48,757 bases of DNA, taken from assembly GCA_013002865.1 (NCBI GenBank), contig JABDLU010000133.1, forward strand, positions 1-48,757. Direction: 5' to 3'. Shown one piece after another: positions 3,406 to 48,734 of this stretch (position 1 is the first letter of the stretch; each line of letters starts with the position of its first letter). The translations under genes and the position numbers were made by a program. A model generated the notes under the pieces. The model saw only the letters and a list, made by a program, of their open reading frames with translations. It was not told the DNA's origin and ran no database searches. The DNA comes from Acidimicrobiia bacterium (GTDB taxonomy: Bacteria > Actinomycetota > Acidimicrobiia > Spongiisociales > SHLN01).

Positions 3406-3440
3406 CGGTGGACGGTCAACGGTCATCGGTCAACGGTCAG
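3406..3440 (+). repeat. Heptamer tandem array 1
   Basis: Five units of 7 nt: CGGTGGA, CGGTCAA, CGGTCAT, CGGTCAA, CGGTCAG. On the opposite strand this is TGACCGT-like, the same family as the array before moeA. It lies between the nucleotidyltransferase 3' end and the ctaC leader. Confidence 0.85.
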
Positions 3441-4261: not shown

Positions 4262-5263
4262 CTATCCCGCCACCGCGTCGAATACCCCCGGATCGATCGA
4301 CTGCCACTCGTCGACGGCCCCTTCGATCCGTTTGAGGTGGTCACGCTGCATCGCTGACTCCCGGGGGGTGGTCGGCATCCACCGTGCGGTGCCGAGCGTC
4401 CAGAACACAAACATCCAGTGCAGGGCGCCTCCCGCCATAGCGACCACGTCCTCCTGCGAGACGCCCGATGCGCCGTGCTCGACTAGTGCGTCGTGATAGG
4501 CATCCAGCAACCTTCGGCGGGTGTCGCCTGCCGCCATGCCGACCAGGACCGCCGCCAGGTCCTGTGCACCGGGGCCCCGCCGGCATCCCGCCCAGTCGAT
4601 CAGATACGGCTCACCGGTCCCCGGCGCGAACAAGAAGTTGTCGAGATGGGCGTCACCGTGCACGAGCGTCGCCGGGACTCGGCCCAGGATGGCGGTTCCG
4701 CGAGCCAGCACCTCCGGAGCCCGGGCCAGCAACTCACCGGCCAGGTCGGATTGCGGTTGGCCGAACCGGTCCAGGAACGCCGACCGCCGGTCGGCACACC
4801 AGGCGTCGTCGGGGAGGGTGGTCATCGCATCGCGCAACCAGGGCAACCGATCGAGCTCCGCTGAGCCCCACCACTGCCCGTGCAGCCTGCCCAGCATCCG
4901 CACGATCCTCTCGATGACGTCATCGCCCTCGTCAACCAGCACATCCCCTTGGCGGAAGCCGTCGAGCGCACTGAGGACGAGGTAGCCCGTCGAGCCGTCG
5001 CTCCCGCCAGCGAGACAGACGGGGAGAGGTATGTCGAGACGGCCGCCGAAGTGCTCGTAGAACCGGATCTCGGCCGTGCCGGCCGGACTGTCGAGGTCCC
5101 ACCGCTTGACGACGACGTCTCCGACGGGACCGCCTGTCAGCTCGAGCCGGAATATCTCGCTGGCCAGCCCGTAGGCCTCACCCACCCGGGCCGACGAGCG
5201 GATGTCGACCTCGTACCCGAGGATGCTCGAGAGCCAGTTCGATGTGGGGGGCCGGGGGGTCAA
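4262..5263 (-). CDS. APH/choline-kinase-fold phosphotransferase
   Basis: About 333 residues. The kinase catalytic loop is LVHGDAHLDNFLF (about 215) and the metal-binding segment is LIDWAGCRRGPGAQDLA; an N-terminal lobe contains VVVKRW as the likely ATP-lysine strand. Members phosphorylate aminoglycosides, choline, sugars or other small hydroxyl compounds; the substrate cannot be read from the sequence. The likely start is a TTG whose last two bases are the first two of the upstream gene's TGA, giving direct coupling; an upstream in-frame start would overlap that gene by over 100 nt. Confidence 0.78.
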   Translation of the reverse strand: MTPRPPTSNWLSSILGYEVDIRSSARVGEAYGLASEIFRLELTGGPVGDVVVKRWDLDSPAGTAEIRFYEHFGGRLDIPLPVCLAGGSDGSTGYLVLSALDGFRQGDVLVDEGDDVIERIVRMLGRLHGQWWGSAELDRLPWLRDAMTTLPDDAWCADRRSAFLDRFGQPQSDLAGELLARAPEVLARGTAILGRVPATLVHGDAHLDNFLFAPGTGEPYLIDWAGCRRGPGAQDLAAVLVGMAAGDTRRRLLDAYHDALVEHGASGVSQEDVVAMAGGALHWMFVFWTLGTARWMPTTPRESAMQRDHLKRIEGAVDEWQSIDPGVFDAVAG

Positions 5264-6735: not shown

Positions 6736-6783
6736 AACCCTCCGGGTTGCTTTCGAGTTTGCCCGCGGCAAACTCGTGGCAGC
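6736..6783 (+). repeat. Double-hairpin element, copy A
   Basis: Two hairpins in series: AACCC-TCC-GGGTT, then GCTTT, then CGAGTTTGCC-CGC-GGCAAACTCG with a 10-bp perfect stem, ending TGGCA. A second copy lies at 7169-7216 with the same order and spacing and with compensatory changes in both stems. A heptamer array follows 5 nt later. No T-run follows, so it is not a classical terminator. Confidence 0.8.
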
Positions 6784-6788
6784 GTTCT

Positions 6789-6830
6789 AACGACCAACCA
6801 CTAACGACTAATGACTAACGACCAGCGACT
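6789..6830 (+). repeat. Heptamer tandem array 2
   Basis: Six units: TAACGAC, CAACCAC, TAACGAC, TAATGAC, TAACGAC, CAGCGAC. It ends inside the stop codon of the small membrane protein gene on the opposite strand, and the next 7-mer is TAGACAG. Confidence 0.85.
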
Positions 6831-6966
6831 AGACAGCAGCAGCTTCCGTCGCGGTCGAATCGTCTCGGGTGCGGGTGTACAAGAAGACGGCCGCCAGTCC
6901 GATCACGATGAGGACGGGCGGGACGCCCACCTTCTTGAGGCCTTTGAATGCACTCAGCCAAGCCAT
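6829..6966 (-). CDS. Small single-pass membrane protein (45 aa), unknown function
   Basis: The reverse strand encodes 45 residues beginning MAWLSAFKGLKKVGVPPV: a short amphipathic basic N-terminus, one membrane helix (VLIVIGLAAVFLY), then a polar tail TRTRDDSTATEAAAV. An AAGGAAA ribosome site lies 5-7 nt before the ATG, which supports translation. The stop codon overlaps the end of heptamer array 2. No family is recognised. It sits between the secreted glycosidase gene and the selenocysteine tRNA. Confidence 0.7.
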   Translation of the reverse strand: MAWLSAFKGLKKVGVPPVLIVIGLAAVFLYTRTRDDSTATEAAAV

Positions 6967-7074: not shown

Positions 7075-7166
7075 GGAGGCGTCTGAGTGCCTGGTGGGCT
7101 CCCCAGTCTTCAAAACTGGTGAAGGGGTGAAAGCTCCTTGGCGGGTTCGATTCCCGTCCGCCTCCG
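7075..7166 (+). tRNA. selC: tRNA-Sec (anticodon UCA)
   Basis: A 92-nt tRNA with the features of bacterial selenocysteine tRNA. Acceptor arms GGAGGCG and CGCCTCC pair over 7 bp, with discriminator G. The anticodon arm is CCAGT-CTTCAAA-ACTGG with UCA in the loop. A long extra arm has stem AAGGGG/CTCCTT. The T arm GCGGG-TTCGATT-CCCGT can extend by a G-C pair, giving the elongated acceptor/T stack of about 13 bp. CCA is not encoded. The D arm contains one G-G mismatch as read. UCA decodes UGA, which implies selenoprotein synthesis; selA, selB and selD are not in the window. Confidence 0.92.
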
Positions 7167-7168
7167 CG

Positions 7169-7216
7169 GCAGCCCTCCGGGCTGCTTGCGAGTTTGGCTC
7201 CGCCAAACTCGTGGCA
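7169..7216 (+). repeat. Double-hairpin element, copy B
   Basis: GCAGCCC-TCC-GGGCTGC, then TTG, then CGAGTTTGGC-TCC-GCCAAACTCG, ending TGGCA. It begins 2 nt after the tRNA-Sec discriminator base, so it could act as a 3' boundary for that transcript. Relative to copy A, the lower stem pairs and the GC/CG pairs near the loop change on both sides, which keeps pairing. Confidence 0.8.
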
Positions 7217-7240: not shown

Positions 7241-7303
7241 TGACCGTCGACAGTTGACCGTTGACAGTTGACCAGGCCGGAGACCGGCGACCGGAGACCG
7301 GAG
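7241..7303 (+). repeat. Heptamer tandem array 3
   Basis: Nine units in unbroken phase: TGACCGT, CGACAGT, TGACCGT, TGACAGT, TGACCAG, GCCGGAG, ACCGGCG, ACCGGAG, ACCGGAG. The unit changes halfway while the 7-nt period is kept. The last unit supplies the GGAG that could serve as the moeA ribosome site. Confidence 0.88.
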
Positions 7304-7311
7304 ACCCTTTC

Positions 7312-8538
7312 ATGCGCCCACTCGAAGAAGCTCAACGGCAGGTGTTGGAGACGGTGCGGGTCCTCCCGGTCGTCGAGACCGCGCTCGCCGATTGCCTCGG
7401 TCTCGTCCTGGCCGAGGATGTGCGAGCCACCCACCCCATTCCCCCCTTTGATAACTCGGCAATGGACGGCTACGCCGTTCGGGCCGCCGATGTGGAGGCC
7501 GTCCCGGTCACCCTGACCGTCGTCGAGGACGTGGCGGCGGGGCGGGCACCGGACCGCTCGGTCGGATCGGGAGAGGCCATCAAGATCATGACCGGGGCAC
7601 CGATGCCGCCGGGAGCCGACACGGTGATACGGGTGGAGGACACCGAGCAAGCCGGCGATCGAGTCACCATTTCGGTAGGGGCACCGGCCGGCACCTCGGT
7701 GCGCCGGGCCGGCGGCGATATCGCCGCCGGTGCGATGGTTGCCCAGGCAGGCACCCGGCTGGGCCCCAACCACCTCGGCGTACTCGCTTCGGTGGGAGCC
7801 GCCCGGCCCCGGGTCTACCGCCGGCCGACGGTGGCCGTCCTATCGACCGGCGACGAAGTCGTCCCCTACGAGACTGCCGAGCTGGCGCCGGGTCAAATCC
7901 GGGGCACCAACGGATTGGTGCTGGTGTCCGTCTTGCGGGAGCTGGGGGTTGAGGTCCTCGACCTGGGCATCGTCGGCGACAACGCCGATGAGCTTCGCGC
8001 CGCGCTCGCCCGGGGGTCCCGCGAGGCCGACGCCATCGTGACGTCGGGCGGCGTGTCGATGGGTGAGTACGACCTCGTGAAGGCCGTGCTGGGCGAGCTG
8101 GGCGGAGTCGAGTTCTGGCAGGTGGCGATGCAGCCCGGCAAGCCATTCGCCTTCGGGATCATCGACGGCACACCGCTCTTCGGCCTGCCCGGCAACCCGG
8201 TGTCGGTCTTCGTCGCCTTCGAGCAGTTCGTGCGTCCCGCCCTGCTCCACATGATGGGCTCTCCCCGCCTGTTTCGCCCCCACCTGCCCGCGGTTCTCGA
8301 TGAAGCGGTGTCCACTAATCCGGCCAAGACGGTCTTCGTCCGCGTTGCGGTCACCTGGGAGGATGGCCGGGCCCGGGCATCCACCAGCGGCGGCCAGGAT
8401 TCCAACGTGCTGTCGGCCCTGGCGGCAGCTGATGCGCTGGCCGTCATCCCGGTCGGCATCGGCGATGTTCCCGCCGGCGGCGCCGTCTCGCTTGAGATGT
8501 TCCGCTATCCCGAAGATCGTGGCCTATCCGGGCCGTGA
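7312..8538 (+). CDS. moeA: Molybdopterin molybdenumtransferase
   Basis: 408 residues. MoeA inserts molybdate into adenylylated molybdopterin to give molybdenum cofactor in the cytosol. Visible landmarks: N-terminal FDNSAMDGYAV, KIMTGAPMPPGAD, the MoCF-binding segment STGDEVV followed by TSGGVSMGEYD, QPGKPFAFG, and LPGNPVSVF, then a small C-terminal domain. I start at the ATG at 7312 because in-frame codons upstream lie in the heptamer array. A cofactor gene beside tRNA-Sec fits use of a molybdenum selenoenzyme such as formate dehydrogenase, but that enzyme is not in the window. Confidence 0.95.
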   Translation: MRPLEEAQRQVLETVRVLPVVETALADCLGLVLAEDVRATHPIPPFDNSAMDGYAVRAADVEAVPVTLTVVEDVAAGRAPDRSVGSGEAIKIMTGAPMPPGADTVIRVEDTEQAGDRVTISVGAPAGTSVRRAGGDIAAGAMVAQAGTRLGPNHLGVLASVGAARPRVYRRPTVAVLSTGDEVVPYETAELAPGQIRGTNGLVLVSVLRELGVEVLDLGIVGDNADELRAALARGSREADAIVTSGGVSMGEYDLVKAVLGELGGVEFWQVAMQPGKPFAFGIIDGTPLFGLPGNPVSVFVAFEQFVRPALLHMMGSPRLFRPHLPAVLDEAVSTNPAKTVFVRVAVTWEDGRARASTSGGQDSNVLSALAAADALAVIPVGIGDVPAGGAVSLEMFRYPEDRGLSGP

Positions 8539-23257: not shown

Positions 23258-23264
23258 CGCCTCA

Positions 23265-23299
23265 GTTGGTCAGTGGTCAGTGGTCGGTGGTCAATGGCC
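23265..23299 (+). repeat. Heptamer tandem array 4
   Basis: Units GTTGGTC, AGTGGTC, AGTGGTC, GGTGGTC, AATGGCC; the other strand reads GACCACT-like units. It precedes the lipoprotein gene, whose other side carries array 5. Confidence 0.8.
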
Positions 23300-23707: not shown

Positions 23708-23735
23708 CCGTTGACAGTTGACCGTTGACGGTCGA
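23708..23735 (+). repeat. Heptamer tandem array 5
   Basis: Units CCGTTGA, CAGTTGA, CCGTTGA, CGGTCGA, then CCGGATC. Same GACCGTT/GACAGTT family as array 3; it starts 7 nt after the lipoprotein stop. Confidence 0.85.
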
Positions 23736-23877
23736 CCGGATCTTTTCGCGCCCCTCCCTATCTCGTTTCCGCGACCCGGGGAGGCGTCGATATGGTCGGC
23801 GGCACTCCCCGAGCCCGCACACTTCCCAACGCGATAGGGGTTTCTTTCGCGTTTTGTGTCACATACGTGTAATACCC

Positions 23878-48671: not shown

Positions 48672-48734
48672 ATCAGCTATCAGCAATCAGCAATCAGCAA
48701 TCAGCAATCAGCAATCAGCAATCAGCAATCAGCG
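48672..48734 (+). repeat. Heptamer tandem array 6
   Basis: Nine exact-length units: ATCAGCT, seven ATCAGCA, ATCAGCG. It is the most uniform of the six arrays, which suggests recent expansion. It lies upstream of the 90-aa gene; nothing is seen in the remaining 23 nt. Confidence 0.95.

Follow-up and report, generated by a model that had tools for sequence, protein, structure and literature searches.

The locus raises the question of whether an Acidimicrobiia bacterium that carries a selenocysteine tRNA gene with an irregular D arm uses selenocysteine (Sec), and whether the adjacent moeA gene points to the enzyme that would need it. The whole stretch of DNA analyzed here, 48,757 nucleotides and hereafter the window, contains a single tRNA according to ARAGORN, a tRNA-SeC with the anticodon tca at positions 7075 to 7167 of the plus strand. 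A sequence-only reading had called this gene the tRNA-Sec of an actinobacterium from its UCA anticodon, long extra arm, and elongated acceptor/T stack, and the covariance model that it proposed as a check agrees: the Rfam tRNA-Sec family (RF01852) matched positions 7075 to 7165 over model positions 1 to 91 of 91, with 71.1 bits (E = 1.1e-12) against a gathering cut-off of 47 bits. All three structural features were found as described, and the stack comprises 13 bp (Table 1). A search of the window's genome with RF01852 identified this gene as the only true tRNA-Sec; seven of the 16 other matches were taken as loci, and these turned out to be tRNAs for Ser, Leu, Gly, or Cys. CCA is not encoded at the 3′ end, where GCGG follows directly, and a pattern search of the surrounding sequence found no sigma-70-like promoter or terminator pattern.

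Table 1. Features of the tRNA-Sec locus, in window positions
Feature	Position	Strand	Evidence
tRNA-Sec gene (selC), including discriminator base G73 at 7166	7075..7166	+	RF01852, ARAGORN, fold
D arm: 6-bp D-stem (4+2), 4-nt loop, bulged G at 7089	7085..7101	+	Fold; extra base conserved across the order
Anticodon UCA, reads UGA	7110..7112	+	ARAGORN, RF01852
Long variable arm, 7-bp stem	7122..7139	+	Fold
T arm, 6-bp stem; its G48-C66 pair is the thirteenth of the 13-bp stack (7+6)	7140..7158	+	Fold, pairing counts among relatives
moeA, molybdopterin molybdotransferase	7312..8538	+	Pfam MoeA_N, MoCF_biosynth, MoeA_C, all complete

The strand at 7075 to 7166 is predicted to fold into a cloverleaf with a long variable arm (−41.1 kcal/mol; 4 of 200 shuffles were equally good), in which the acceptor has 7 bp, the D-stem 4+2 bp and a bulged G, the anticodon loop 7 nt, the variable arm 7 bp, and the T-stem 6 bp. 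Beyond its full-length match to RF01852, the gene shares with that family the UCA anticodon, the long variable arm, G73, the 13-bp acceptor/T stack, and the 6-bp D-stem with a 4-nt loop, here built of 4+2 pairs, one bulged G, and a UGGU loop. It differs from the family in the bulged D-stem purine and in the thirteenth pair of the stack, which is G48-C66 (7+6) and not 7a-66 (8+5). The bulge consists of one additional purine, G7089, which separates the fourth D-stem pair from the fifth. The sequence-only reading had seen a mismatch in the D arm and questioned the function of the tRNA on that account; the irregularity is real, but the doubt falls away because the same extra base recurs in the relatives that were sampled within the order. 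Its usual context is GAGC/GCTC or GGAC/GTCC, and in one case it is an A. It is absent from most of the other Actinomycetota sampled. The D arm was therefore rejected as a signal of decay, and the bulge is a structure of the lineage and not lost function. A D-stem bulge at position 13a, apparently the same place, is on record for Clostridiales tRNA-Sec in the part of the source consulted (PMC5330540), where it accompanies a 12-bp acceptor/T stack, whereas the tRNA studied here keeps 13 pairs.

These 13 pairs are reached by a route other than the textbook 8+5 form, with 7a-66 a U-C mismatch and G48 pairing with C66. Of the 30 distinct tRNAs compared within the order, 28 have a 7a that is unable to pair with 66, and all 30 have a G48 that is able to, counts that are approximate, as 2 of the 30 come from sequences with a misplaced 5′ end or from a family with a 12-bp stack (f8). 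In the rest of the phylum, G48-C66 was found in 17 of 27 tRNA-Sec and the textbook 7a-66 pair in 9. In our reading the 13-bp stack takes a 7+6 form here, which, judging from these counts, is common in the phylum; the literature passages on tRNA-Sec structure that were consulted contain no description of it. It is conceivable, if rather doubtful, that Actinomycetota tRNA-Sec form a structural class with G48-C66 (7+6), to which this order adds the D-stem purine bulge, and that the phylum's SelA and SelB are matched to that class. In family f8, two tRNA-Sec (L069, about 4769 to 4859, and L072, about 4944 to 5037) have an apparently 12-bp stack (7+5) and lower Rfam scores of 58 to 60 bits, and they resemble the Rubrobacter type described in the consulted part of PMC5330540.

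The genome was then considered as a whole for the remaining Sec machinery. It is a metagenome-assembled genome (MAG) of 2.92 Mb in 224 contigs, with an estimated completeness of 89.8% and contamination of 0.9%. Consistent with the earlier statement that no selA, selB, selD, or UGA-containing gene is visible nearby, all three sel genes lie outside the window, and the tRNA-Sec gene is located away from selAB. Each was recovered above its curated cut-off: selA (TIGR00474, 433.9 bits versus 267.9) and the adjacent selB (TIGR00475, 308.9 versus 242.25) on contig 100, and selD (TIGR00476, 396.2 versus 125) on contig 23. The SelB protein comprises a GTPase domain, a beta-barrel, and two SelB winged-helix domains. 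The predicted selenocysteine system is thus complete, with the tRNA-Sec gene, selAB, selD, and a formate dehydrogenase (FDH) on four contigs whose correct binning is assumed. Neither outcome that the sequence-only reading had named as speaking against it, a lack of the sel genes or a weak covariance match, was observed. The window holds no credible selenoprotein gene according to a codon-usage scan that looked for in-frame TGA flanked on either side by coding signal; one site (17365, minus strand) is the stop of one gene with the start of the next in frame and was rejected. The scan did pick up the FDH site, which effectively served as a positive control; it is not exhaustive, since it missed SelD, where the TGA lies near the start. 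Selenoproteins beyond these two were sought within the examined stretches only.

Two genes with in-frame TGA, selD and the FDH gene, were found by the search for such genes and bacterial SECIS elements that the sequence-only reading had suggested. FdhA and SelD are the most widespread bacterial selenoproteins, and Actinobacteria are selenoprotein-rich (PMC1794560). In selD the TGA falls at MIKLTRYSHGSG-U-ACK, so that the product, in addition to its TIGR00476 score, would carry Sec in the N-terminal SHGSG-U-ACK of Sec-containing SelD. Among 59 genomes of the order, 55 have a SelD relative, and most of these relatives contain one TGA; the 30 examined all read SHG[SA]G-U-ACK, and a hairpin with GGU in its apex recurs about 30 to 46 nt downstream of the TGA.

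The FDH operon is on the minus strand of contig 64 (L029, 5358 to 9876), downstream of the end of a gene that by eye reads like formate-tetrahydrofolate ligase. Its first gene encodes a catalytic subunit of 632 codons with a AAGGAGGTGAG ribosome site, Molybdopterin (PF00384) and Molydop_binding (PF01568) domains, and one TGA, which would place Sec and then His at the metal (NRT-U-HAPSVAGL). The second encodes a fused NuoE-NuoF-like protein of 600 amino acids, and the third a 274-amino-acid Fe-S protein with a Molybdop_Fe4S4 domain at its end. The catalytic chain alone scored 648.2 bits with the formate dehydrogenase alpha model TIGR01591, below the curated cut-off of 666.25; model positions 51 to 672 are found in the first gene and positions 1 to 48 in the third. 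The predicted alpha subunit is therefore divided where the Fe4S4 part meets the molybdopterin part, and its two pieces are encoded in reverse order. The catalytic subunit is homologous to chain 1aa6 (E. coli FdhF, FDH-H). In E. coli FdhF, too, the Sec at the metal-ligand position precedes a His, and a GGUCU SECIS loop lies about 20 nt past the UGA. There, a single chain includes the Fe4S4 domain, which here occupies a separate gene.

To assess the conservation of this arrangement, the GTDB genome collection was scanned; of the 360 relatives returned, the best 80 were retained. Most are Acidimicrobiia or other Actinomycetota, and it is from these FDH relatives that the class of the bacterium, Acidimicrobiia, was judged. 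Of the 80, 78 have TGA as the Sec codon and two have TGC, and the orthologues from the order that cover the site (68 to 82% identity) have one TGA. In 66 of the 80 the genes are colinear (catalytic-NuoE-NuoF-FeS), with the stop of the Fe-S gene at most 25 codons from the Fe4S4 domain in 60 of these 66 and at most 32 in the other six. Both TGC genes belong to Saccharopolyspora (L139 and L143, about position 8235) and have also lost the SECIS loop, a conversion of Sec to Cys. According to the part of PMC7176365 consulted, Actinomycetospora chiangmaiensis DSM 45062 removes formate in a selenium-dependent manner, and its cytoplasmic Sec enzyme FDH3 was detected, with subunits FdhA3, FdhB3, and FdhC3 of 640, 614, and 316 amino acids; the 632, 600, and 274 residues found here come in the same order, so that by subunit size and arrangement it is the same three-part enzyme. 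The relatives found include congeners of that strain (L149, L154, and L159). The consulted passages of PMC7176365 contain no discussion of a split alpha subunit, and a literature search for split Sec FDHs in Acidimicrobiia gave nothing useful. The predicted product is an NAD-type formate-oxidizing Mo or W enzyme in which Sec should ligate the metal.

Downstream of the FDH TGA, nucleotides +16 to +21 pair with +27 to +32 to form a SECIS stem enclosing GGUCU at +22 to +26. Across the FDH relatives, the stem is paired in 99.5% of cells, and three of its six pairs have changed on both sides; neither the observed pairing nor the observed covariation score was reached by any shuffle or any slid control. 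One of the pairs changes from C-G to U-A and so replaces two residues simultaneously (Ala to Val and Ala to Thr), an outcome not expected from protein constraint alone. The GGUC loop is lost in both Cys-encoding genes.

The distribution of the trait was estimated from tRNA-Sec, whose sequence is conserved across the order and which was found in 94 of 119 relatives and in 118 of 199 genomes sampled across the phylum. The expectation that selenocysteine use is patchy in actinobacteria thus does not describe this clade. In some genomes with a UGA-containing FDH, tRNA-Sec was not found even when the search was filtered less; weak matches in relatives that seemed to lack it were rejected as tRNA-Ser, tRNA-Leu, or no tRNA by ARAGORN. 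One of these genomes (G011), estimated to be 100% complete, has a UGA-FDH, a UGA-selD, and a selB match, and either an assembly gap or a tRNA-Sec that escaped detection may account for it. Six of six checked genomes of this kind have selB (partial in two), so missing contigs are the likely but unproven explanation.

Taken together, the RF01852 score, the presence of selA, selB, and selD, the UGA codons at conserved positions in selD and the FDH gene, the covariation of the SECIS hairpin, and the conservation of the tRNA across the order make it almost certain that 7075 to 7166 is the single functional tRNA-Sec gene of a bacterium with a complete bacterial Sec pathway. We infer that the gene is transcribed, the tRNA charged, Sec inserted, and the enzyme active. 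In this pathway, SerRS would charge the tRNA with serine, SelA would convert the serine to Sec with selenophosphate from SelD, and SelB would take Sec-tRNA to UGA codons that are closely followed by a SECIS hairpin as their mark. The demonstrable clients are SelD itself and the NAD-type FDH, whose Sec would ligate Mo or W. Weighing against this are the UGA-FDH relatives without a detected tRNA-Sec, G011 included, and the dependence on correct binning of key genes from four contigs of a 90% complete MAG. The extra unpaired D-stem base and the unpaired 7a and 66 could instead mark a decaying remnant of a lost Sec system with an already damaged D arm, yet both features are common to the whole order and selA, selB, selD, and two open UGA genes accompany the tRNA, so that decay is very improbable. 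Equally remote is a selC-like tRNA or allo-tRNA that inserts Cys or Ser at UGA: tRNAs of tRNA-Sec shape with other amino acids exist, as stated in the part of PMC7609411 consulted, but this one has G73 and not U73 together with a UCA anticodon, and it coexists with the full selA, selB, and selD set and with SECIS-bearing UGA genes.

A functional tRNA-Sec being the favored reading, the role of moeA can be considered separately. The gene had been taken to suggest a molybdenum selenoenzyme; a Mo/W selenoenzyme is indeed encoded, the FDH with UGA at the metal ligand, but the neighborhood is not what indicates it. MoeA relatives (49 to 75% identity) adjoin tRNA-Sec in four of the four members of the window's family that have tRNA-Sec, whereas in 16 genomes from outside the family no moeA was found closer to tRNA-Sec than about 5 kb. 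The adjacency is therefore synteny of one family, not itself evidence for a selenoenzyme, and moeA was rejected as a marker of a tRNA-Sec operon outside the family. The two genes might still work as a unit and be transcribed together in the service of a Mo selenoenzyme, as their proximity in all four members and the presence of a Mo/W Sec enzyme in the genome would allow. This is nevertheless unlikely given the 16 outside genomes, the location of the FDH on another contig beside what reads like fhs, and the arrangement in G003, a member of the same genus with moeA on the opposite strand and the other side of the tRNA. In G003 (L061, 3628 to 5071), moeA is upstream of tRNA-Sec, unlike in the window and three other family members, and a local rearrangement between the two genes would account for this.

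The surroundings of the tRNA are also repetitive. Intergenic-looking arrays of 7-bp tandem repeats occur in the window at 3412 to 3439, 6787 to 6831, 7241 to 7306, 23262 to 23297, 23708 to 23738, and 48672 to 48733, with one unit per array (ACGGTCA, CTAACGA, TGACCGT, CCGGAGA, TCAGTGG, and ATCAGCA); two of them flank the tRNA-Sec gene. By eye, contigs 23 and 64 also show heptamer arrays of this sort, and the arrays recall the heptameric repeats described in cyanobacteria and Beggiatoaceae (PMC4679880). A palindromic element (ctccggg..gcgagtttg..caaactcgtggca) is likewise visible by eye in two similar copies, one on each side of the tRNA, at 6740 to 6781 and 7175 to 7215; a pattern search for this repeat, with a pattern that was too strict, matched nothing.

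The tRNA-Sec gene is itself ordinary and of a kind already known. Its analysis confirms selenocysteine use in an uncultured Acidimicrobiia lineage, in whose order the trait is the rule, and cautions that a D-arm mismatch in tRNA-Sec can be a structure of the lineage and not a sign of decay. It also adds one genome to the selenium-dependent pathway of formate oxidation already reported in a cultured actinobacterium.
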